This document shows, piece by piece, positions 1,087 to 43,500 of a stretch of DNA of 62,912 nucleotides; position 1 is the stretch's first letter, and each line of letters starts with the position of its first letter. A program made the translations under genes and the position numbers. The notes below the pieces were generated by a model. That model was not told the origin of the DNA. It ran no database searches and saw only the letters and a list, made by a program, of their open reading frames with translations. The stretch is from Dysgonomonas sp. ZJ279 (GTDB taxonomy: Bacteria > Bacteroidota > Bacteroidia > Bacteroidales > Dysgonomonadaceae). The DNA lies in NCBI RefSeq assembly GCF_011039205.1, contig NZ_JAAKEL010000019.1, positions 1 through 62,912 on the forward strand. Reading direction: 5' to 3'.

Positions 1087-1123
1087 AAAATGAGCAATAA
1101 GCCCCTAAGTTTATTGCTCATTT
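1087..1123 (-). terminator. hairpin at the end of the portal/gpF gene
   Basis: Perfect 14-base stem: 1087-1100 pairs with 1110-1123 around a 9-base loop. On the minus strand the stem includes the last codons and the stop of the upstream gene. The T-run after the stem is short, so it may act partly as a 3'-end stabilising hairpin between the portal gene and gpG. Confidence 0.55.
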
Positions 1124-3663
1124 TCTTTTATCTTTTCCAAAGCCGAAAAATCACCCGATGTAATTTGTTTGCGTGTAATCTCGGCAACTTTATCTCCATT
1201 AATAATAACCACTCTTTGTATATTGGTATTTTGAGTACCAAGGCTACCAGCTAACAATCGTTTTAGTTCTGAAAAATCGTTTTGTTTACTTAGATCAAGT
1301 ATAGCATAATGTGCACCTTGTTTGTTTGCACTTTTCAATCTATTCTTAATGAAGTTCACAAAGCTACTCTCTCCGTCGAAAGTTTTCAGATCACCTAACA
1401 TTTTACTTTTTCCGATTGCAAGTTCCGGATTCTTTTGTCCGTTAACAATTCCGCCTTCTATGTGATGACGAATAAAAATATCCTTACCCATTTCTTTAGC
1501 TAACTTGCGTGCGGCTTCAATATTTTGTTCTAAATCTGATACATCGGCAAAGTCGTTAATATAAACATTATTATCACCGGATTTCATGACTTTGTTATAG
1601 GGTAAATATGCTTTTGTGAGTTCTGCTTGTTTGCGAATTTCGAGACGTACTTCTTTACTTTCTACTTTTTCATTATAACTATTATTATCGTTGAATATCT
1701 CGCCGGTCTTTCCCGGATTACCTGACCATTGCGGGTCGGGTGTATAGTCGGGTGTGAAATTGGTTAATACCTCGCGTGTTTGCTCCCACCAACAACGACA
1801 ATTAGGGTCTAGCGGCGTCATGTGTTCATCTAAGAAAGGGTCGTCGATGTCGACAACCATACCCTCCAACGCAAAATGCGCCGGGCGTACATCTTTATCG
1901 TTCATTGTACGGAATTTTACACGCTGGTAAATATCCTTGTCTAAAATCCAATCTTGGAACTGCCGGGCCGCTTGTGCCGAACGTGCCGACCATGCCGCCT
2001 GTACATTTAGATATTGCCCGTTTTGCAGGTCTAGGTATTTCTTTGCTTCCTGTTCATATAGTTTTTTACTATCTATCGAATCACTCAGCGTTTGTACTTC
2101 ATTTTGTTGCACATGGGTTTTAGTGGCTGAAAATCTTAATAAGTTCTCACGTATCTTGCGGGCGATCTCATCAGTATAGTAATCCTTACCATATCCATTT
2201 TGCGCGGCCTTATTCAATCGGTCGTATGTCTTAAGGATAAAATCCTTATTTAGTTCTTCCGGCTTGATTTCGCCCCGTCGTATTTGTTCTATCAAATCAT
2301 TGATAGCATTATCCCATGTGGCGGCATAAATAAGCCCCACGCCCTCCAAAGGAGGAGCCATCCATGCGTAAGGGGCTAATGACGAAAAACTATTTACCTT
2401 ACTCTTTTTTTTTTGAGTGTCGTCGGTTTTGGGGTCTTCCGGTTCCGGGGGCACTTGCCCTATAGCGGCCTTTAATTTTGTAATTGGTAAACCTGTAATT
2501 TTGACAAGTTCTTCAACATTAAATTCAAAATATTGAGATAGTGTACCCACCGCTTCCAATACTTCTTTCATTGATAAAGTTTCGCTCTCATCATATTCAA
2601 AAGTAAGGTTTGCCAATGGAGCATAAACAGGGCTAAGTTTAACAAGCCGCGGCATTACCTCTGAATTAAAATAGTATTTGAAAATTAGTTTATCAACTTT
2701 GTAACGATACTGCAAAATACGTTCTTGAACCTCGGCGGCACCGACAAAAGACTTTTCATCTGTAAGACCCGAACTACCAAGAATACGCTTGCTTATTTCT
2801 TTATCGCAAATGTCAGACATAAGCGACTTAAAAGTATTATGTGCATCCACATTGTAACCTTGGGGCGTTTCTATTTTCTCATTGCCTTGTAGAACTGCAA
2901 AATGATTCATTCGGAAATTTTCGAGCATTTCAAAAAGTTCATCACGCCTTGTCGAATCCATTCGATCTGTAATAGCAAAAATAGGAGGTACCCCGAATTT
3001 ATCTATATAGGACATCCACGAACCAAGGCCTAATTTTTTAGCAATAACAACCGTTGCTAGCCCCGATAATATTCCAAGTTCCCAATCGCCGCCAACTTGA
3101 AAGTAATAGTTTTTATAAACGCCCTCTTTGTAACTTGTACCTTCAGTGTCATATTCTTTATCTATGATAATACCCTTTTGAGGTATGAAATTAGATTGCG
3201 GAATTTCTGACACTCTCGCTAGTTCGCCCTTTTCGTTTATATCGTACATTTCAATAAGTTTAACCCCGTCGAATGTATATGATAAAATATGTTTTGCAAT
3301 TTCGAGGTACCACGGTCTTTCGAGCAGTTTTTTAGCTTGAATATCCTCATTATTATCGCTATCAACCAATTTAAAAGGGGCGCATTGTACAGGCATGATG
3401 CGGTTTTCGATACAACTCATCAAATGGCCGTCTAGCGACATATTTTGCCGAAATCGCAACCAACCACCAAGTCTGGGATTGTCGGGGTCAGTAGCCGCCA
3501 TGATAGCGTTAGACCAATCCCTTATCTCTTTACGTGACATGTTAGATGCTTGGCGGGTATAATCTATCTTTTTACCAATAGATCGCTTGTGGTATTCATT
3601 AAAAACATATAAGTTGCTGGCCTTGGATAATATCCATGTGGACGCTTTATCAATTATATTCAT
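1111..3663 (-). CDS. fused portal (DUF935/gp29-like) + minor head protein (gpF-like) + C-terminal nuclease-like domain
   Basis: This 850-residue protein combines functions that are usually separate. Residues about 40-400 look like the DUF935/Mu gp29 portal (DPDNPRLGGW, LSYTFDGVKLIEM, the FGVPPIFAI stretch). Residues about 560-630 carry the gpF/SPP1 gp7 head-morphogenesis signature (KFRTMNDKDVRPAH, then HMTPLDPNCRCWW). The last 160 residues form a third domain with a KNPELAIG...MLGDLKT stretch that resembles the E...(D/E)xK core of PD-(D/E)xK tRNA-nuclease toxins of the CdiA type. Portal and gpF are well supported; the nuclease idea is inference. The portal forms the DNA entry ring and gpF enters the procapsid. 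It overlaps nothing and lies 6 bases after the gp36-like gene. Confidence 0.85.
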   Translation of the reverse strand: MNIIDKASTWILSKASNLYVFNEYHKRSIGKKIDYTRQASNMSRKEIRDWSNAIMAATDPDNPRLGGWLRFRQNMSLDGHLMSCIENRIMPVQCAPFKLVDSDNNEDIQAKKLLERPWYLEIAKHILSYTFDGVKLIEMYDINEKGELARVSEIPQSNFIPQKGIIIDKEYDTEGTSYKEGVYKNYYFQVGGDWELGILSGLATVVIAKKLGLGSWMSYIDKFGVPPIFAITDRMDSTRRDELFEMLENFRMNHFAVLQGNEKIETPQGYNVDAHNTFKSLMSDICDKEISKRILGSSGLTDEKSFVGAAEVQERILQYRYKVDKLIFKYYFNSEVMPRLVKLSPVYAPLANLTFEYDESETLSMKEVLEAVGTLSQYFEFNVEELVKITGLPITKLKAAIGQVPPEPEDPKTDDTQKKKSKVNSFSSLAPYAWMAPPLEGVGLIYAATWDNAINDLIEQIRRGEIKPEELNKDFILKTYDRLNKAAQNGYGKDYYTDEIARKIRENLLRFSATKTHVQQNEVQTLSDSIDSKKLYEQEAKKYLDLQNGQYLNVQAAWSARSAQAARQFQDWILDKDIYQRVKFRTMNDKDVRPAHFALEGMVVDIDDPFLDEHMTPLDPNCRCWWEQTREVLTNFTPDYTPDPQWSGNPGKTGEIFNDNNSYNEKVESKEVRLEIRKQAELTKAYLPYNKVMKSGDNNVYINDFADVSDLEQNIEAARKLAKEMGKDIFIRHHIEGGIVNGQKNPELAIGKSKMLGDLKTFDGESSFVNFIKNRLKSANKQGAHYAILDLSKQNDFSELKRLLAGSLGTQNTNIQRVVIINGDKVAEITRKQITSGDFSALEKIKENEQ

Positions 3664-16616: not shown

Positions 16617-17131
16617 TGAAACAACTATTTTATATACTGATTCTATTTTTTGTATTTACCGGTTGTCGCTCCTTTCAAAATAGCAAGGCCGAATTATCAG
16701 AAAAAAAGGAAATTCATTTAGATAATGACATCACGTCATCGGATGATAGGTATTTGTATGAAAATATAGAGCGTGCTATAAAACAAGTGTTAAGTGAACG
16801 GCTTAATATAAATATTAAACAAAAGAAGTATGACACGGATAAGCCGATAAATCCCGAAACAGGGAAACCCCCACTTTTGGAAGAAAACGAAATAGAAATA
16901 AGCAAAGCTACTGATCTGTCAATTAATGATTCCACTCATACTAATAAATCGGAGTTATCTAATAAGTTGAATATTGATAAAGGTAAAACGACAATAAGAA
17001 GTGATACACTAAAAAAGTCAATGTTAGAAAAGAAAATAGATTCCGGGGTTAGTAATTGGGTGATTAAGATAGTTGCAATAATAATTGTAATTGGTGCAAT
17101 AATATTATTTGTAAGATGGAAACTAAAGTAG
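16616..17131 (+). CDS. unimolecular spanin (u-spanin) candidate
   Basis: The 171-residue protein has a lipoprotein signal ([17 protein letters not shown]; lipid-bearing Cys at residue 17) and a single C-terminal membrane helix at about 147-166 followed by RWKLK. Lipid in the outer membrane and a helix in the inner membrane is the u-spanin design; the middle is polar and charged. Holin, endolysin and this gene are consecutive and joined by small overlaps. Spanins fuse the two membranes in the last lysis step. No separate i-spanin/o-spanin pair is present. The role is inference from topology and position. Confidence 0.7.
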   Translation: MKQLFYILILFFVFTGCRSFQNSKAELSEKKEIHLDNDITSSDDRYLYENIERAIKQVLSERLNINIKQKKYDTDKPINPETGKPPLLEENEIEISKATDLSINDSTHTNKSELSNKLNIDKGKTTIRSDTLKKSMLEKKIDSGVSNWVIKIVAIIIVIGAIILFVRWKLK

Positions 17132-20410: not shown

Positions 20411-20611
20411 ATGATATATACAATAAACAAAGATCAAGATACATTCGAGATAGACGACAATGTGTTTTTTCGCAATCAGTCACCGAAATTTCAAAAAGTC
20501 TTTTCAGAAAATCAACGTACATATAATGTTGCACTGTTCGATAATTGTGAAGTGATGGTTTTGAGTACTGATAAAATAGTAGTTAATGATAAAATAGAAG
20601 ATTATGAATAA
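20411..20611 (+). CDS. small hypothetical fibre-operon protein
   Basis: The 66-residue protein is acidic and starts 2 bases after the previous stop; its stop overlaps the next start by 8 bases. It has no recognised family (MIYTINKDQDTFEIDDNVFF, then VMVLSTDKIVVNDK). The close fit in the operon supports that it is translated. It could be a fibre chaperone or short connector. Confidence 0.5.
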   Translation: MIYTINKDQDTFEIDDNVFFRNQSPKFQKVFSENQRTYNVALFDNCEVMVLSTDKIVVNDKIEDYE

Positions 20612-22469
20612 TAAATTTAAAGACTACTATATAAACTATGATCAGCTAAATATTTATGATGTTGATTATAGATATATTTACTATTTCAGTCAGATAGCGA
20701 CCTCAAAAAGTGGTGTAGGTACACGCGATAATCCTTATCACGTTGCAGTGTCTCACCTCAATGTCGGTAATGGTGGCGGTAAGACTTGTAATCTGCTTTC
20801 GGGCGGTGAGTATCTTTTGCGTCTTGCTGTAAGTGGTGATGGTCATTACCGCGATCTTATCGGTATGGGTATGCACGCAACAAAAATAAACTTCTCGCTT
20901 ATATCCGATAATTTCACTCATATACGGTTTAAGGATTTAACGTTAAACGCTCTCGATCTTGTATCTGCAACACAAACGGTTACATATCGCTTTGACAATT
21001 GTGTGATTGAAAGTGGTTTTAACAAAACGGTTAATAATGCAACCAAATGTCTTGTCAAAATTCAAAGTAGTATTGTTGGTACGCGCGGAACAAACAATAC
21101 ATTTTCAAATACGGTGATACAAACATTATTATTTACAAATCTTTCGATTGTAAATAAATGTGACGTTGTTGTTTCGCAAGCAGATTTAACGAGTTATAAT
21201 ACAAGTTATAAAGGCTTCGATTCATGCCGATTCAAAATAGGCGGTGAGTTGGGTTTTACGCCATTAATCGGAAATACAGAGGCGACGTTACGTGCTGATT
21301 TTGTTAGCAGATGCGAGGCGCAAGGTTTGACCGTTCCAAGTGTGACCGATTATGATATTACCAATAAGGTTGGGCGCTGGGTGTTCGATAACGGATCGAC
21401 GATCGAGGGTGCGATTATTAAAGGTTCTATCTTTCATCTTTTTGAAGAACGTTTATTTATCATTCTAGGACACACAATCAACCGAATAGAACGCATACCG
21501 ATTACATTGTCTAAAAATAAACCAGCCTCGATCAGTACGGCAAATCCTAACAGCGGTTTACTTGTTGGTGAAAACTCGTTACAGTTACCCGCGAATGTAG
21601 ATATAACAGACGCGGCAAGCGGTTATATAGAATCAAATGTGATGTGGCTGGGTGGTAAGAACAAAATAAACGAGGTCGGTATATTTGGTAATTTACCGAT
21701 GTATTTAGGTGTGACAAGTGATGGCACGCGAGATATAGGCTCAACGCCTGTAACTGTTATTCGCGCGGGCTGGGTTTATTTGGTGCGTTCGTCCGATAAG
21801 CAATTCGCGTCAATAACCTATAACGGTTCGACCTATTCGACTTCATTAACGACTCGTAATAATACATTTATCGGTGTTGCTGGTGTGGCTTCTTTTGCTG
21901 TTGTTAGCGGTAATGTACAAGTATTTGAAGTGTTAGACCTTGCGCGGGCGCAAACGGTCAAAATGCGCGTTGTGAATGACTTACCCGACGGTTTAATCAC
22001 CAGCGGGAACTTACAGGCTGATTATTGGTACTTCGTTGCTCCGAATAACTTAAATGACACAAGCGGAACTGTAACTTATAACAATGTTGTATATCCGTGT
22101 TTTGGTTCATTCTTGGTTACTAGTGCTACATTGACATTCGCTATTACTGGTAATTGCCATTTGCGCCGATGCTGGAATAAGAACTATGCAGAAAGTGACG
22201 CAACCGACAAAGCATTTTGGACTAACAGGCAAAAACCGTTTTGGTGTGATGTTGTTCCGAACGATACGCGATGCCTGATGCAAAATAATAATGACTTTGC
22301 CAACGAAATGAAGCGCGGGGCTGATGGTAATTACTTGACCTCTGGTCATAATGATTTTTACGCACTGGCTGGCGGTGATGGCGGCGTGATCGTTCCATCG
22401 TTTACAATACATGGTTCATTTGTTCAGTATCGCATTGATATTTCAACGCTAAACCCTATTAGAATTTAG
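20604..22469 (+). CDS. large receptor-binding tail fibre/tailspike-like protein
   Basis: The 621-residue protein has a beta-solenoid-like N-terminal half (VGNGGGKTCNLLSGGEYLLR, then repeated strands to about 280) of the kind found in tailspikes. Residues about 380-520 hold two similar domains (AGWVYLVRSSDKQFASITYN and ADYWYFVAPNNLNDTSGTVT, each ending in a GxFxV..TxxFxxxGN pattern). The end has WTNRQKPFWCDVVPNDTRCL and a glycine-rich tip. No catalytic motif for a depolymerase is obvious. It is the main candidate for host recognition. Confidence 0.7.
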   Translation: MNNKFKDYYINYDQLNIYDVDYRYIYYFSQIATSKSGVGTRDNPYHVAVSHLNVGNGGGKTCNLLSGGEYLLRLAVSGDGHYRDLIGMGMHATKINFSLISDNFTHIRFKDLTLNALDLVSATQTVTYRFDNCVIESGFNKTVNNATKCLVKIQSSIVGTRGTNNTFSNTVIQTLLFTNLSIVNKCDVVVSQADLTSYNTSYKGFDSCRFKIGGELGFTPLIGNTEATLRADFVSRCEAQGLTVPSVTDYDITNKVGRWVFDNGSTIEGAIIKGSIFHLFEERLFIILGHTINRIERIPITLSKNKPASISTANPNSGLLVGENSLQLPANVDITDAASGYIESNVMWLGGKNKINEVGIFGNLPMYLGVTSDGTRDIGSTPVTVIRAGWVYLVRSSDKQFASITYNGSTYSTSLTTRNNTFIGVAGVASFAVVSGNVQVFEVLDLARAQTVKMRVVNDLPDGLITSGNLQADYWYFVAPNNLNDTSGTVTYNNVVYPCFGSFLVTSATLTFAITGNCHLRRCWNKNYAESDATDKAFWTNRQKPFWCDVVPNDTRCLMQNNNDFANEMKRGADGNYLTSGHNDFYALAGGDGGVIVPSFTIHGSFVQYRIDISTLNPIRI

Positions 22470-22473
22470 TATT

Positions 22474-22704
22474 ATGGCAGAGTATGAAAATGGATTGCCG
22501 CCTATAACCGATATATCGGACACATCTGTTTCGAGTGTGTCTATAACCAAAGCGGTTTTTAATGATGTAGAGGTTAGAAATGAAGTTACGGCGGTTAGTA
22601 TTAATACAAGTGTATTCGAGTCAGCTAGTGAGTTGAGCGAATTAAATACTATATCAATCACGAAAGGCGATGCCGTTGGTAGAAATTTTGGTACGTTCTT
22701 GTAA
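22474..22704 (+). CDS. small hypothetical protein, last gene of the fibre operon
   Basis: The 76-residue acidic, serine/threonine-rich product (TSVSSVSITKAVFNDVEVRN, then TSVFESASELSELN) starts 4 bases after the tailspike stop. It has no recognised family. The alternating polar pattern suggests a beta-helical or fibre-tip segment. Followed directly by the structured intergenic element. Confidence 0.5.
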   Translation: MAEYENGLPPITDISDTSVSSVSITKAVFNDVEVRNEVTAVSINTSVFESASELSELNTISITKGDAVGRNFGTFL

Positions 22705-22725
22705 TTAAAATAGGAGGGATAAATA

Positions 22726-22851
22726 AGCCCTCAGTCGTTAGTAGTATCTCACCACGTACTAACGTATTCGTTAAAATAAATGCGAAGCAACGCATAACTG
22801 AGGGCTGATGCCTTTAGTTACGTTGCTTCGTTTTTTTTGTACGTGGTGAGA
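22726..22851 (+). other. structured intergenic element with four interlocking inverted repeats
   Basis: Pairs that can be read directly: A 22726-22735 with 22797-22806 (10 bases, AGCCCTCAGT); B 22747-22759 with 22839-22851 (13 bases, TCTCACCACGTAC); C 22783-22792 with 22821-22830 (10 bases, CGAAGCAACG) extended by 22795-22799 with 22816-22820; D 22736-22743 with 22757-22764 (8 bases). C plus the T-run at 22831-22838 forms a terminator. A cuts across C and B, and D cuts across B, so the pairs cannot all form at once. This is the layout of an attenuator or of a small structured RNA. It fills the gap between the fibre genes and the methylase. No family recognised. Confidence 0.75.
22783..22838 (+). 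terminator. terminator hairpin after the tail fibre operon
   Basis: A 10-base stem (22783-22792 / 22821-22830) plus a further 5-base stem inside, followed by eight T. It would end the long structural operon. Its inner stem competes with pair A of the structured element. Confidence 0.75.
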
Positions 22852-22892
22852 ATACAAAGATAAGTTTTAAACACTAATTAAATAGAAATTAA

Positions 22893-23753
22893 ATGGAATT
22901 TAAGAAACAAAAAAGCTACAAAGTAGCACCGCTACCTTTTCAAGGACAGAAAAGGAGATTTGTAAATGGTTTTGGAATCGCATTACAGGAACTCAAAGCT
23001 AATAAGGAAGTGAGTATAATAGTCGATCTGTTTGGAGGTAGTGGTTTGCTATCACATACGGCAAAGAATATATTTACTAATACTAGGGTCGTCTACAATG
23101 ATTTTGACAATTATAGCGAAAGACTAAGAAATATAGATCGTACTAATAAATTATTGGCTGATATCAGATTGATATTATCAGATTATCCGAGAGAAAAGAA
23201 ATTAGACGATAAATCTAAGGCCCATGTTCTTGAATGTATTGAAAAAGCAGATAAAACCGGATATGTAGATTATGTTACATTGTCATCATCTATCCTATTT
23301 TCTGCACAGTATGTAACTAGTCTTTCACAACTGAACAAAGAAACGTTATACAATAATGTTAAGGCCACAGACTACGACTTTAGCGCGGATGAGTATCTTG
23401 GCGGCTTGGAGATCGTTCGGTGTGACTACAAGCAACTATATGAGCAATACAAGGATGTGCCGGGGGTGTTGTTTTTAGTTGACCCTCCATACCTATCAAC
23501 TGACACAAAAACTTATCTCTCAGACAAGTATTGGAAGCTTCGGGATTATTTGGATGTATTGAACGTTCTCACAGGCTCTAACTATGTATTCTTTACTTCG
23601 AATAAGAGTTCATTAATTGAGTTATGTGAGTGGTTTGCAGACAATCGAAGTATTGGTAACCCGTTTGAAAATTCAGTATTGAATACACAGAATATTACAA
23701 TCAATAAGAGTGCAAGTTATACCGATATGATGTTGTATAAGTTTGTGAAGTAA
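22893..23753 (+). CDS. dam: D12-class DNA adenine methylase
   Basis: The 286-residue enzyme adds a methyl group to adenine N6 (probably in GATC-like sites) using S-adenosylmethionine. Motif I VDLFGGSGLLS is at about residues 44-54 and the catalytic DPPY at residues 197-200, with the LSTDTKTY loop after it. The N-terminus has the family start VAPLPFQGQKRRF. It lies after the structured element and before a terminator. A phage-borne methylase would protect its DNA from host restriction. The target site is not shown by sequence. Confidence 0.85.
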   Translation: MEFKKQKSYKVAPLPFQGQKRRFVNGFGIALQELKANKEVSIIVDLFGGSGLLSHTAKNIFTNTRVVYNDFDNYSERLRNIDRTNKLLADIRLILSDYPREKKLDDKSKAHVLECIEKADKTGYVDYVTLSSSILFSAQYVTSLSQLNKETLYNNVKATDYDFSADEYLGGLEIVRCDYKQLYEQYKDVPGVLFLVDPPYLSTDTKTYLSDKYWKLRDYLDVLNVLTGSNYVFFTSNKSSLIELCEWFADNRSIGNPFENSVLNTQNITINKSASYTDMMLYKFVK

Positions 23754-32026: not shown

Positions 32027-32184
32027 TATAATTATCAGTTTATTTAGTATAATACTAATCCAGACTAAAGTTGAATAGTCTTAACAGAAGAAATGAAATG
32101 ATAATCAAAATGTATAAATACAAACGTGCAACCATGTGCATTTGATCTCAAGACTTTATTCCTCGAAAGTCTGAATATTTATTT

Positions 32185-32400
32185 TGTCTGGCAGGTCTCC
32201 TGACTTGTTCTCATTTTGAACGGCCTTCCCATCATATCAGTTGTCAGTCATCAGTTATCAACTAAATTGTTGTTTACTGTTCACTGCTCACTGTTTCTAA
32301 CAGTGGCGAGGGTAATGTCAAAATGTTGTTCGTTAGAACTTACAGTAGCGGGTCTGTTCAGGATTTTCACCTGATTCCCTTTTAATCAGATAATCCGAAA
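32185..32400 (-). ncRNA. cobalamin riboswitch
   Basis: On the minus strand the conserved blocks occur in order: GGGAATCAGGTGAAAATCC, ACCCGCTACTG, GCCACTG, GGGAAGGC and AGTCAGGAGACCTGCC (end near 32189). These match the AdoCbl/MeCbl riboswitch core. It lies 160 bases before the btuG-like start, so cobalamin should reduce expression. The peripheral arm between GCCACTG and GGGAAGGC is unusually long and made of short CAGT/CACTG-like repeats (32240-32300). Confidence 0.93.
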
Positions 32401-32426
32401 TGAATTATCCAAACCAAATACGTTTA

Positions 32427-32434
32427 CAAAAATA
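32427..32434 (-). promoter_or_regulatory. promoter -7 box of the btuG riboswitch transcript
   Basis: TATTTTTG on the minus strand fits TAnnTTTG; a TTG lies 19 bases further upstream. Transcription would start near 32420, just ahead of the riboswitch core. Confidence 0.55.
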
Positions 32435-32490: not shown

Positions 32491-33561
32491 TTATACAATC
32501 TGTTTAATTAAATTTTCCATCTTCTCAATGGCACTTTCCCAACTAAAACGTTGAATGTAATTATTACCCCTATGCGCCAATGAGATGCGCTCTTCATTAT
32601 TATCGATCAAATAACAAATTCTTTCAGCCATCTGCTCTGCATTTTTCACCTCAACAAGTAAAGCCGTTTCTCCATCAATAGCAAATTCACGATGTCCGGC
32701 TATATCGGTACAAATTAATGCGCATCCACAGAATAAAGCTTCGGCAGGTGTAAGTGGGAAACCTTCGGTAAAACTATTAGAAAGAAATATCGCATTACGA
32801 TTATATATATCGCAAAGATTATCTGGCGCACGATAAAACTTGATCCAGTCGGGCAAACCTTCCGGCTGAGGGCACACACCGAATAGATCGGCTTGCAACT
32901 CAGGATATCTTTCTTTCACAAGCATTAATGCTTTCAGACCATATTCAGACCCTTTTATTTCTTGTATAGAATAGGTCATCGCAACTGTTGCAAGCGTTCG
33001 CTCTTCTATTTTATCTTTTACAAAAAACTCTTTATTATTGACAGCATTATATATTAATGCAACAGGCTTAGATGTATGCTGCTCTACAATCTCTTTAAGG
33101 TAAGAGGCTACAACAACATTTGTTGTATCAGGCATATCGTACGAAGCATATAATAGGTCTTCGTGCCCTGTCCAGTTTTCAAAACCTTGAATAAGATTTA
33201 TCTTTTTACCTTTCGCCGCACCTAGCTTACCCATTTCTAAGACAGTAGACCACCATGTAGCAATTACAACATCTGCATCTACTACATATCTGTCATCTAC
33301 TTGGGGAACATAAGACATCGTAATAGACGGATCGAAATTAAACCACCTATCATTACGAAAGCCTTCTACCTTAGACAAAATATAACGAGCTACATAGGGC
33401 AAACGATATTCCATATACTGTGTACGGATAGGATATGTAAGATGAACCGAATATCCTTTCTTTGCTAATCGGTTGGCATATTCATACATTACCCGAAATC
33501 CACCTGCCGGACGGCGAGGTTTGAACGGTAGAATAAAATTTATCTTAGTCGGTTTATTCAC
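32491..33561 (-). CDS. GT4-type glycosyltransferase
   Basis: The 356-residue protein has a GT-B fold of family 4: N-terminal FKPRRPAGGFRVMYEYANRL and the C-terminal donor site SNSFTEGFPLTPAEALFCGC with ALICTDIAGHREFA. The EGFPLTPAEAL motif holds the E-x7-E-like nucleotide-sugar contacts. No signal peptide or membrane helix. Sugar and acceptor cannot be told; not part of a larger polysaccharide cluster here. 12 bases from the PhzF-like gene. Confidence 0.85.
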   Translation of the reverse strand: MNKPTKINFILPFKPRRPAGGFRVMYEYANRLAKKGYSVHLTYPIRTQYMEYRLPYVARYILSKVEGFRNDRWFNFDPSITMSYVPQVDDRYVVDADVVIATWWSTVLEMGKLGAAKGKKINLIQGFENWTGHEDLLYASYDMPDTTNVVVASYLKEIVEQHTSKPVALIYNAVNNKEFFVKDKIEERTLATVAMTYSIQEIKGSEYGLKALMLVKERYPELQADLFGVCPQPEGLPDWIKFYRAPDNLCDIYNRNAIFLSNSFTEGFPLTPAEALFCGCALICTDIAGHREFAIDGETALLVEVKNAEQMAERICYLIDNNEERISLAHRGNNYIQRFSWESAIEKMENLIKQIV

Positions 33562-33573
33562 TACGTATTTATT

Positions 33574-34467
33574 TTACTTATCACTCGTATTAAGAAAATA
33601 AGTTCCTTCTATTTTCATAGAAGCACTGCCTCCAAAAAGAACTTTTCCTTCACTCATTTTTAATTTAACTACATTATAAGCGTTTTTCTCTCCGTTTTGT
33701 TCAATAGAAATAGGTTCTCTGTTCCATAGATTATGCTTAAGCATATAGTAACCCATAGCAGAATTGCCCGATCCTGTGGCTACATCTTCCAGATAACCGA
33801 ATTTAGGAGCAAACACACGAGTTCTTATCTTATTATTCTCATTAGTTACATCTGTAGTAAAAACAAGTATAATATCAATCTCATTTGTTATACAGAAAGC
33901 TTTCAATGTTTCTTCATCTGGATTTAAGGCTAATATGTTATCCAGATTGCTAATCGGTACTATAAGAGTTCTTAAGCCGGCATTAATAAAATTGATAGGA
34001 TACTGCTTGTTCAGTACATCTTTTGCAACGCCTAAATTCTCGGAGATTTCTTCTGCTGCAACTGTCACCGATAAATACTCGGGGTTTGGAGCTGTTATGA
34101 AAACTGCATCTAAAGATTGAAGCTCGTTATAAACTACTAAACTGCCTTTCTTTGTATTTATTTTTATTTCGGGTAGTTGTTTGAGCTGTTCATCCGTTTT
34201 TAGTAAATGGTACATACACGCAATTGTACCATGTCCACAAAAATCGACTTCGCATTCCGACGAGTAATATCTCAAATTACACGAAGAGCTATCAACCATA
34301 GCACAGTAAATAACTTCGGACACAAAGCCTTTATGCTCCTTGGCTATATTCTGCATATCAGATTCAGATAAAATCTGATCCTTTTCAAGATATATGCATG
34401 CAGCAGGATTCCCATTAGACTCTCCGGCAATAAAAGCATCTATTTTTAGATATCTAAGTTTTTCCAT
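33574..34467 (-). CDS. PhzF family isomerase-like protein
   Basis: The 297-residue protein has the two-lobe PhzF fold: start LRYLKIDAFIAGESNGNPAA, the catalytic-Glu-like AKEHKGFVSEVIYC, CEVDFCGHGTIACMYHLL, then FAPKFGYLEDVATGSGNSAM. PhzF proteins isomerise acidic metabolites; most have unknown substrates, as here. It may be transcribed with the glycosyltransferase downstream. Confidence 0.87.
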   Translation of the reverse strand: MEKLRYLKIDAFIAGESNGNPAACIYLEKDQILSESDMQNIAKEHKGFVSEVIYCAMVDSSSCNLRYYSSECEVDFCGHGTIACMYHLLKTDEQLKQLPEIKINTKKGSLVVYNELQSLDAVFITAPNPEYLSVTVAAEEISENLGVAKDVLNKQYPINFINAGLRTLIVPISNLDNILALNPDEETLKAFCITNEIDIILVFTTDVTNENNKIRTRVFAPKFGYLEDVATGSGNSAMGYYMLKHNLWNREPISIEQNGEKNAYNVVKLKMSEGKVLFGGSASMKIEGTYFLNTSDK

Positions 34468-40485: not shown

Positions 40486-40551
40486 TAGTACTAAAAATAT
40501 CGCGCTATAAAACGATTTAAGCATATATTTCTAACCTTTCTGGGTGTAATC

Positions 40552-43500
40552 TTGGGACTGATCACGTTAGTATTCGGATTACTGAATATGCCGGCAGTGC
40601 AGGAATATGCCAAAGGTATTATTGTTGACGAGCTTAAAGCTAAGATAGGCACAGAATTAGGCATAGGAAAACTTAGCTTCCAACCGTTCAACTCCATCCA
40701 GTTGGATAGCGTTTACCTTTACGATCAATCGAACGAAAAAGTATTAATGGCAGATAGAATATCAGCCAGCATCGATCTTTTTGCTTTAGCTAAGAGTAAG
40801 ATAGTTATTACCTCTGCATGGCTGTCTGACTTCGAAGTCCATTTATCAAAAGATTCTACGAATGCGCCATTGAATATTCAGTACATTATCGAAGCATTCA
40901 AATCAAAAGACGATAAACCTAAAAGTCAGCTCGACATCAAGTTGAGTGCTGTTAATATTTCGAACGGACAATTTTATTACAATGTAAAAGACAAACCCGC
41001 TAAAGAGAATATATTCGATGAAAATCACATACAGGTTTCGAATCTAAACGCAAAACTCGCTCTAAAATCACTCCTACCCGACTCTCTCAACATCCAGATA
41101 AAGAGTATAAACCTAAAGGAGAAAAGCGGACTTGAAATCACAAATCTTACCGGTCGGCTTATCACTCAAGACAATAAAGCGTACCTGAGAGGGTTCAGAC
41201 TCGATATGCCTTCATCATTTCTACAGTTCGACAAATGCGAAGTCAATCTTGCTCAACCTGCGGATTCGATACATGCAGACATTCTCGATTACGCGAACCT
41301 AGATCTTATAATTGCACCATCGTACATAGCGCCCAAAGATGTATCAGCCTTTGTACCGCTTCTGAAAAACTTCAACAATTATGTGACATTGAGAGGGCAT
41401 ATATCGGGAACGATAGACAATCTACAAGTAGAAGATTTCTCACTCGACTTAGGCGATAAGATGCACCTCATCTCGAATGTAGAAATAAAGGATCTAAGAC
41501 AGTCTGATAAGATGTACATACTCGGAAGCATAGATAACCTGACTGTTAGTAGTGAAGGAATACAAGAAATAGTCGGCAATCTTTCCAAAAACAAAAATAA
41601 ACTGCCAAAGCAAATAACCAATCTGGGGACTATCTCGTTCCAAGGTGATATATCGGGATATCTCAACCAATTGACTGCATTTGGTAGCCTAGATACACAA
41701 CTTGGCATCGTCAAGACAGATATACTTTTTGGAATCAATCCGACAAAAGGAATAAACTCATACGCAAAAGGAAAAGTATATACCTCAAATTTCGATTTAG
41801 GCAGGCTATTAGACAATAAAGATATTGGCAAAACATCTCTAAATATTACTGTTGACCTCGAACAACCCAAATACGGAAAGCTAAGGGGCAATGCGCAAGG
41901 TATAATTCACGATTTTGCATATAAAACTTACGAATATAAAGATATCACGTTCGACGCGGATTATGATGGTCTGCGTGTGGATGGAAAGTTACATGCAAAC
42001 ACGCCCAATGGAGAATTAAATATAAAAGGTTTATTCGATTTATCGGATAAAAATTTACCGGAACTCAATTTCGAAGCCCACGCATACAATCTGGAATTAG
42101 ACGATTTGAAGTTGGCAGATAAATTAAAAGACTCTAATCTGTCTTTCGTTATGCGTGCTAATTTCAAAGGAGCAAATATAGACGATGCAGTAGGCTACCT
42201 TAAAATAGATACGTTGGATTTTGTGAGTGGAGATAAACATTTCCATATGAATCAGTTTTTGATAGAAGCGTCGAAAGATTCTGCTATGAATCAATTGAAT
42301 ATAAAATCGGATATACTAAATGGTGAAGTTAGGGGGGCGTATTCTTTCACCACGATGGCTAATAGTGTATTGCAAACACTGCATCCTTATTTACCAGCAT
42401 TAATCAACGCTCCGCAAAAAAAGAAGCCGGACGAAAAAGAAAATAATCTGACATTCGAGTTTCAGATAAATAATTCAGAGAGCCTGAGTAATATTCTCAA
42501 TTTACCTGTAGTGGTACTTAGCCCTGCCAAAATTATAGGATTTTATAATAATGTTCAGGATAAATTTAAAGTAGAGGTATTTGCTCCATCAATTAAAGCT
42601 GCAGGATCAAATATAAAATCGGGATATGTTGTCGCTGACAATCAGAATAACTTGATTACGACTAAAGTGAATCTACTGATGGCCGGCAAAAATAATTCGA
42701 TTAACGACATTGCACTTACAGCAACTGCATCAAATAATCTTGTTACCACTAACATAACGTTTGCAAACGATGGAAAACAGAAAGCCAAAGGAGAATTTGC
42801 AATCTCAACTTTGTTTACAAGAGAAAATAAAGAGCCATTGCAAATCGATGTAGATGTATTACCGAGTGAACTAGTCCTAAACAATGCCGTTTGGAAAATG
42901 GAACAATCACACATCCATATACAGGAAAACATTGTCGGAATTGATAATTTTCTGGTATATAATGATGATGGTAGTCAGGAAATAAAAATCAACGGGAAGT
43001 ACTCGAATAACAGTCCTAAAGAAATTTTAAAGACTGAACTCAAGAATATTAATCTTGAATATATATTTCAAACACTTGCTATCGATGTCCTGAAATTTGG
43101 CGGAAAAGCAACGGGTAGTTTATTTCTTTCGAGCATAGAAAAGAAACCTTATGCTAATACGAATCTGGAAGTAGAAGATTTCAAATTTAATGGCACTGAA
43201 CTCGGTAAACTGAAACTATTCAGTGAGCTTGACGACGAAACGAATAAAGTTATTCTTAGCGGAGCAATAATAAGTAAAGAAAACAAAACGACGAATGTAG
43301 ACGGATCCATCGATCCGATAAAACAAGCCTTGTCTATCAACTTTGACGCTGATAGTATTGATATCGGCTTTTTAAAGACATATGCAGAAACCATATTCAG
43401 CAACATAAGTGGCAGGGGAACAGGGAAAGTACATTTATTCGGTAATTTCTCTAAAGTTACAGTCGAGGGAGATGCATATATTCAAGACGGAAATATTGGC

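Follow-up and report, generated by a model that had tools for sequence, protein, structure and literature searches.

Between the tail genes and a DNA methyltransferase gene of a Mu-like phage in Dysgonomonas sp. ZJ279, several inverted repeats overlap within 126 bases, which raises the question of whether this DNA controls the neighboring gene, is itself a rearranging segment, or encodes an RNA. We analyzed it within a 62,912-nt stretch of contig NZ_JAAKEL010000019.1 (hereafter the window), for which an initial annotation had offered three options: an attenuator controlling the methylase, a phage small RNA, and a short invertible segment. Comparison with homologues makes it probable that this DNA encodes, on its minus strand, a structured noncoding RNA ~135 nt long, and that the gene lies at the right end of the prophage.

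Overlapping arm pairs and their homologues

The window phage is Mu-like (Portal_Mu, Phage_Mu_F; tail sheath). Upstream of the element are two plus-strand ORFs of 621 and 76 aa (20604..22704), initially described as fibre genes; their position behind the tail genes agrees with this, but neither has a family match in Pfam or PHROGs. Directly after the element comes the plus-strand DNA methyltransferase gene (286 aa, 22893..23753; phrog_56, E 1.4e-26). Elsewhere in the window, Portal_Mu and Mu F-like parts are combined in one 850-aa minus-strand ORF (1111-3663), towards the end of which CdiA_C matches weakly, below the cut-off. A cobalamin riboswitch (96 bits) lies at 32173-32433, also on the minus strand.

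The four arm pairs that the initial annotation had listed can be read directly from the sequence, and all are perfect: helix A (22726-22735/22797-22806, 10 bp), helix B (22747-22759/22839-22851, 13 bp), helix C (22783-22792/22821-22830, 10 bp, plus an inner 5 bp at 22795-22799/22816-22820), and helix D (22736-22743/22757-22764, 8 bp). Together they exceed chance. Bases 22757-22759 are common to D and B, the inner part of C overlaps A, and eight T follow C on the plus strand (22831-22838). To these we add helix E (22714-22718/22728-22732), an alternative partner of arm A that is probably used on the plus transcript, and a minus-strand -7 promoter box, TATCTTTG (TAnnTTTG; 22862-22855), beside arm B. 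The plus-strand order of the family is E - A - D - B - D' - C - A' - C' - B' - CAAAnnTA - next gene. Folded as RNA, positions 22705-22838 of the plus strand reach a z of -6.9, and positions 22705-22892 reach -8.9 (plus) and -7.1 (minus), with 0 of 200 shuffles as good in each case.

The predicted RNA would run on the minus strand from ~22851 (5' end) to ~22718 (3' end), as judged from a covariance model match and from the promoter and T run conserved in homologues. Read in this direction, it would comprise the 5' arm of B (22839..22851), the 5' arm of the hypervariable stem C (22821..22830), the arm of A that sits inside the C loop (22797..22806) and covaries with 22726-22735 in homologues, the 3' arm of C (22783..22792), the first arm of D (22757..22764), the 3' arm of B within the D loop (22747..22759), the second arm of D (22736..22743), the 3' arm of A (22726..22735), and a T-rich end, TATTTAT (22719..22725), which is weaker here than in most copies. 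The D arms are supported by their local helix score, and B is paired in homologues despite changed sequence. On the plus strand, hairpin C with its eight T (22783..22838) may be an intrinsic terminator of the late (tail) operon in the window copy, judging by sequence and fold. The genome also has a second copy (G000:C3:98454-98652), 85% identical, whose C stem differs yet still pairs. This copy and a methylase occupy a contig end (G000:C3:98386-98652), probably representing a related second prophage in this one genome.

In viral contigs, a pattern derived from the first homologues yielded 85 stretches with 56 distinct cores; in contigs of bacterial genomes, it yielded 73. Three of these 73 (L181, L194, and L205) come from outside the phylum, have neither T run nor box, and look like chance; by their titles, the remaining 70 are nearly all from Bacteroidales, plus one Kiritimatiellae MAG and one uncultured bacterium. 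L074 and L075 were rejected as chance matches of a 17-base pattern. Covariance model R2, built from 26 sequences and limited to the CTCACTTA type because MAFFT misaligned the B classes, matches the window at 22724-22862 on the minus strand (40.1 bits, E 9.2e-8); model R1, with only one helix (8 pairs), was left out of the searches. The methylase protein alone, with the element unused, retrieved 65 viral loci. The covariance model located the element in 58 of them, all on the same strand, and these hold 45 distinct element sequences; in seven of the 58, the element exactly repeats one of the 26 sequences of the model, and in 51 it does not. The other seven loci were negative even with filters off, three of them having ~1 kb or less upstream of the methylase gene.

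R2 gave 107 matches, of which 38 were set aside; two of the 38 were weak hits (window 16904-16985, L067 916-986), and the others were reverse-strand echoes of the same elements. The remaining 69 were used for wobble counts and the local test of helix D. For the covariation of A and the test of helix E, L077 and L158-L164 were left out, which gave 61 matches. R2 confirmed the element in phages p00, jmh47, jmh72, BKO1-TP1, and P. gingivalis phage012a. BLAST matches to parts of the element, taken as a list, fell in 22 phage records with one query and 26 with another, including further jmh, TP, and P. gingivalis phages; a phage collection queried with the window's own DNA gave no match. Matches occurred in 12 of the 295 genomes searched from the window's order and in 2 of the 296 from its phylum (its own genome in both). 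These counts are lower bounds, as the window's own copy did not pass the strict filter. Within the genus, 3 of 25 genomes matched the DNA, two by part of the query. Rfam 15 gave no match over the element at the gathering threshold, either in the window or at 11 loci; Rfam relatives were rejected, in agreement with the initial view that no known family matches. The weak below-threshold matches on the window are at chance level (best by E-value SSRC38, 22.2 bits vs 80).

Crossing helices and the transcribed strand

Helices A and D covary in homologues beyond every shuffle. Helix A, although left out of the model structure, has 28 double-change cells that pair in homologues (500 shuffles: mean 8.4, max 20), for example GCCCCCGG/CCGGGGGC, GCCCTCAG/CTGAGGGC, and GTCCTCC/GGAGGAC. 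Helix D has a local helix score of 14.6 (shuffled partners: mean 10.6, max 11.4, n=200), with CGCAAGTAG/CTACTTGCG as its pair in P. gingivalis; on the model alignment its 51.2% pairing lay within the range of the controls (shuffles 47.3%, max 53.4%; slides up to 61.6%), and the local search was used instead. Helix E is weaker than A and D: its mean score is 11.6 (shuffled mean 10.2, max 10.8, n=200), but only the mean exceeded the shuffles, since the 40 of 43 copies scoring at least 8 equal the best shuffle (40). E covaries and fits the plus strand, making a plus-strand function likely as well. Pair counts for B and C on the model alignment lean towards these two helices, because the alignment was fitted to them.

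Since A crosses both B and C, and D crosses B, the RNA would either form a double pseudoknot or alternate between B+C and A+D. An RNA-level structure with crossing helices, as initially proposed, is thus supported. The helices do cross, but the stricter claim that A+D and B+C exclude each other does not follow, because pseudoknots allow coexistence, bar the 3-base B/D overlap in this copy. A and E, which have an arm in common, are mutually exclusive. In nested folding of the window copy, B+C (-49.6) is ~16 kcal/mol better than A+D (-33.5), so A would have to form as a pseudoknot or only transiently, or be retained for some other reason. The comparisons support a minus RNA built on hairpin C, in which the 5' end (B) would pair with the D loop and the 3' tail (A) with the C loop; A may form last and act as the terminator. 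By eye, many homologues also have a small plus-strand hairpin with GGGGG in its loop (window 22705-22735, L158 6025-6065), followed by an A-rich stretch and CCCCC in the shape of an H-type pseudoknot close behind the preceding stop codon; in the window, this hairpin is weak or absent.

Promoter sequences point to the minus strand. According to PMC7366714, TAnnTTTG is the Bacteroides -7 consensus. Of 98 distinct copies for which 90 nt were available, 96 have CAAAnnTA, as a minus-strand box reads on the plus strand (29 letter-permuted controls: mean 3.7, highest 19), and 2 have TAnnTTTG on the plus strand. Among genome contigs, the box is present in all 65 measurable copies, a count that leaves out L181, L194, and L205 and five copies cut by contig ends. 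It is also present in 54 of the 56 viral cores, where 0-4 nt separate it from the helix B end that follows; in the two others (L089 and L148), the sequence after A3 departs from the family. No -33 box was recognized by eye. Comparison supports a model in which the -7 box would start transcription at arm B (~22851) and the RNA would end at A and its T run.

The T runs differ in constancy between the strands. On the minus strand, all 70 family copies in genome contigs have at least 5 T in 8 nt after A. On the plus strand, a run of at least 5 T follows C in 64 of 97 copies (4 or fewer T in 33) and in 42 of the 61 rows of the helix E set. A small RNA gene is expected to have a promoter of its own, here the predicted -7 box (96/98, without a -33 box), and an intrinsic terminator, here A and its T run (70/70), with the difference that A is a long-range pairing, unlike the usual terminator hairpin.

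Wobble pairs were counted with symmetric scoring, as minus:plus ratios. In the pattern-found set, these were 59:13 for B, 38:14 for C, and 9:0 for D. A first attempt on the methylase-derived set gave 68:39 (B), 40:74 (C), 17:8 (A), and 31:18 (D) with over-long helices, as the finder ran into the loop or B; the second attempt gave 56:28 (B), 30:9 (A), 45:46 (C), and 8:8 (D). A strict test on 96 RNAs, in which only distinct contexts with flanks were counted for A, B, and C, gave 45 GU on the minus strand vs 21 on the plus (p 0.004), divided into 26:15 for C (p 0.12), 13:5 for B (p 0.10), and 6:1 for A (p 0.13). The wobble bias favors the minus strand, with doubt for C. Altogether, promoter, T run, and wobble bias indicate the minus strand and support the small RNA option of the initial annotation.

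The same data bear on the attenuator, in which read-through RNA on the plus strand would pick either A+D or C (with or without B) and so set the amount of methylase mRNA. C with its eight T is a good terminator in the window copy, T runs of five or more follow C in about two thirds of copies, and E covaries and, by occupying arm A on the plus strand, would free C. However, the plus T run is short in a third of copies, the downstream gene is inconstant and often not a methylase, and the near-invariant signals (-7 box and minus T run) and the wobble bias point to the other strand. We consider attenuation unlikely as the main function, and possible as a second one; where the plus T run is present, E and C may form the 3' end of the tail operon. 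A bidirectional terminator or insulator between the tail operon and the right-end genes, with no functional RNA, would explain the T runs on both sides of many copies, but it has no need of a conserved -7 box or of compensated changes in A, B, and D, and we regard it as quite improbable. The element looks like one copy of a previously unannotated RNA gene of ~135 letters, which Mu-like phages from bacteria of the gut and mouth encode against the direction of their late genes.

A hypervariable stem

Stem C often differs between closely related phages. From 105 copies with flanks, we obtained 127 pairs whose downstream flanks are at least 88% identical. Where this flank is 96-99.5% identical, the C arms are <70% identical in 11 of 31 pairs, which share members and are not independent, while the A-to-B stretch averages 96%; the upstream flanks in this band average only 82%, with three listed pairs at least 95% identical on both sides. 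Where the downstream flank is at least 99.5% identical, C is identical in 9 of 9 pairs. Across the right 4.6 kb, phages p00 and jmh47 share 95% identity and differ in their C stems, and a near-identical C stem occurs in different B types (L078, L142). Replacement of C between close relatives, both arms together, hints at conflict or type specificity.

A DNA element would also fit C stems that vary as whole blocks among relatives, and like C stems joined to different B stems; it would be a recombination site or a short invertible segment, with the 13-base B arms on either side. The invertible segment, an option of the initial annotation, is not supported by the full-length R2 matches (E <= 0.001), which in 58 loci all have one orientation relative to the gene, although assemblies may miss a rare inversion; moreover, the wobble bias and the promoter imply RNA. 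We therefore rejected the inverton and consider a DNA element of either kind highly improbable.

For the minus-strand RNA, the hypervariable C hairpin might serve as a type label that keeps the RNAs of co-resident or competing phages from cross-acting. Among genomes with more than one copy, the C stems differ in 6 of 8 and are identical in 2 of 8, the latter on short contigs; among random copies, C is the same in 47 of 2415 pairs. Multi-copy genomes thus differ in C no more than random copies do, which lends no support to a type label. In B. fragilis S82, the same element recurs near the end of three short contigs (L191, L195, L225), which looks as though several copies of the prophage had interrupted the assembly at this point.

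The same minus-strand RNA might instead be a trans-acting prophage small RNA, with the C stem or its conserved loop directed against a gene of the host, a superinfecting phage, or a defence system. It would have its own promoter box and T run, the frequent replacement of C suggests conflict or specificity, and the element is retained where neighboring genes change. However, the variation lies in a paired stem and not in a free seed, and C arm targets elsewhere in p00, jmh47, jmh72, and the window were not above chance in any of these four genomes. The longest self-matches of the C arms are 8-10 nt (shuffled C arms: mean 9.3-10.0), so self-targets in the own phage were rejected. We regard a trans-acting role as rather doubtful.

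Position at the phage right end and possible roles

In hankyphage p00 (BK010646), the element occupies a gap at 40,530-40,708 in which the record has no feature. On one side is the last gene of the diversity-generating retroelement (DGR) side (annotated as Avd in jmh72 and as DUF4376 in BKO1-TP1), and on the other an 80-aa ORF, followed by thymidylate synthase and an N6 methyltransferase. The 80-aa ORF is Mor-domain by the BKO1-TP1 annotation and belongs to PHROG 17790, where its function is unknown. In P. gingivalis phage012a, the element lies between a tail gene and an acetyltransferase, and across phages the 80-aa Mor-like ORF, ThyA, or an acetyltransferase often replaces the methylase that follows directly in the window. 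Since neighbors differ among phages, the constant feature is the junction of the tail module and the right end, and not any one neighbor. In BK068093 (L161), the annotated acetyltransferase CDS (33292-34161) begins inside the RNA element, and its start may be too far upstream.

A DGR template or target element was rejected: the P. gingivalis phage record lists no reverse transcriptase (RT), and L083 has a serine recombinase-like ORF instead. This ORF (2915-3508, reverse strand), like one in L228, was recognized by eye upstream, where others have DGR genes. No RT was seen among the window ORFs scanned, which are part of the upstream ORFs. The RT-3 and RT-17 RNAs (Rfam RF03068, RF03020), known from the DGR loci of the same phages, precede the element by ~1.9 to 7.3 kb in 5 of 11 loci. 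The element differs from them in place and structure, and it also occurs where no RT was seen upstream (the P. gingivalis phage, L083, and the window ORFs scanned).

This position suggests how the minus-strand RNA may act. A host-type promoter would fire in the prophage state, in the lysogen, and the RNA would be complementary to any plus transcript running from the tail operon into the right-end operon, which would consist of the Mor-like ORF, ThyA, and methylase in hankyphage and begins directly with the methylase in the window. The right-end operon might then be held down by antisense pairing or by convergent transcription. Position alone argues for the counter-transcribed antisense class, and we put forward an antisense role on this operon tentatively, as one possibility.

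Counter-transcribed regulatory RNAs include ColE1 RNAI, IncFII CopA, and IS10 RNA-OUT. Like these, the element RNA would be small, carry a promoter and a terminator of its own, have complementarity to a transcript from the same element, and show fast-changing, compensated stems. It differs in that its effect on a sense RNA is putative, that the variable part is a stem while the conserved loop is tied to the 3' tail, and that it lies at a phage right end and not at a replication or transposase gene. The right end of phage Mu carries com-mom, a DNA-modification gene behind the tail-fibre module. The arrangement here is similar, but comprises the 80-aa ORF (Mor-domain-annotated in one record), ThyA, the N6 methylase, and a minus-strand RNA. 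Another comparison is with the GibS-type intergenic small RNAs of B. thetaiotaomicron, which according to PMC7366714 have their own start, an intrinsic terminator, and TAnnTTTG-type promoters of the phylum; there the 5' end of GibS is mainly single-stranded, whereas that of the element RNA is predicted to be paired.

Among the papers listed by literature searches, no title or abstract opening names the element, and the available portions of PMC12135933, PMC6199706, and PMC10367356 make no mention of it; candidate lists in supplements (e.g. PMC8040213) may contain it. By the titles of papers, hankyphages are ubiquitous or widespread phages of Bacteroides, and RNA-seq of strain jmh43 is published (PMC12135933). 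A candidate RNA gene in these phages, left unmarked in the records and papers examined, can be tested directly with the jmh43 data. For an RNA to exchange an entire paired stem among close relatives is an unusual mode of evolution. As a speculation that we consider unlikely, transposable prophages of Bacteroidales may carry a double-pseudoknot RNA in which C is a fast-exchanged label, each RNA silencing the right-end operon of its own kind only and so providing an RNA-based incompatibility or immunity.
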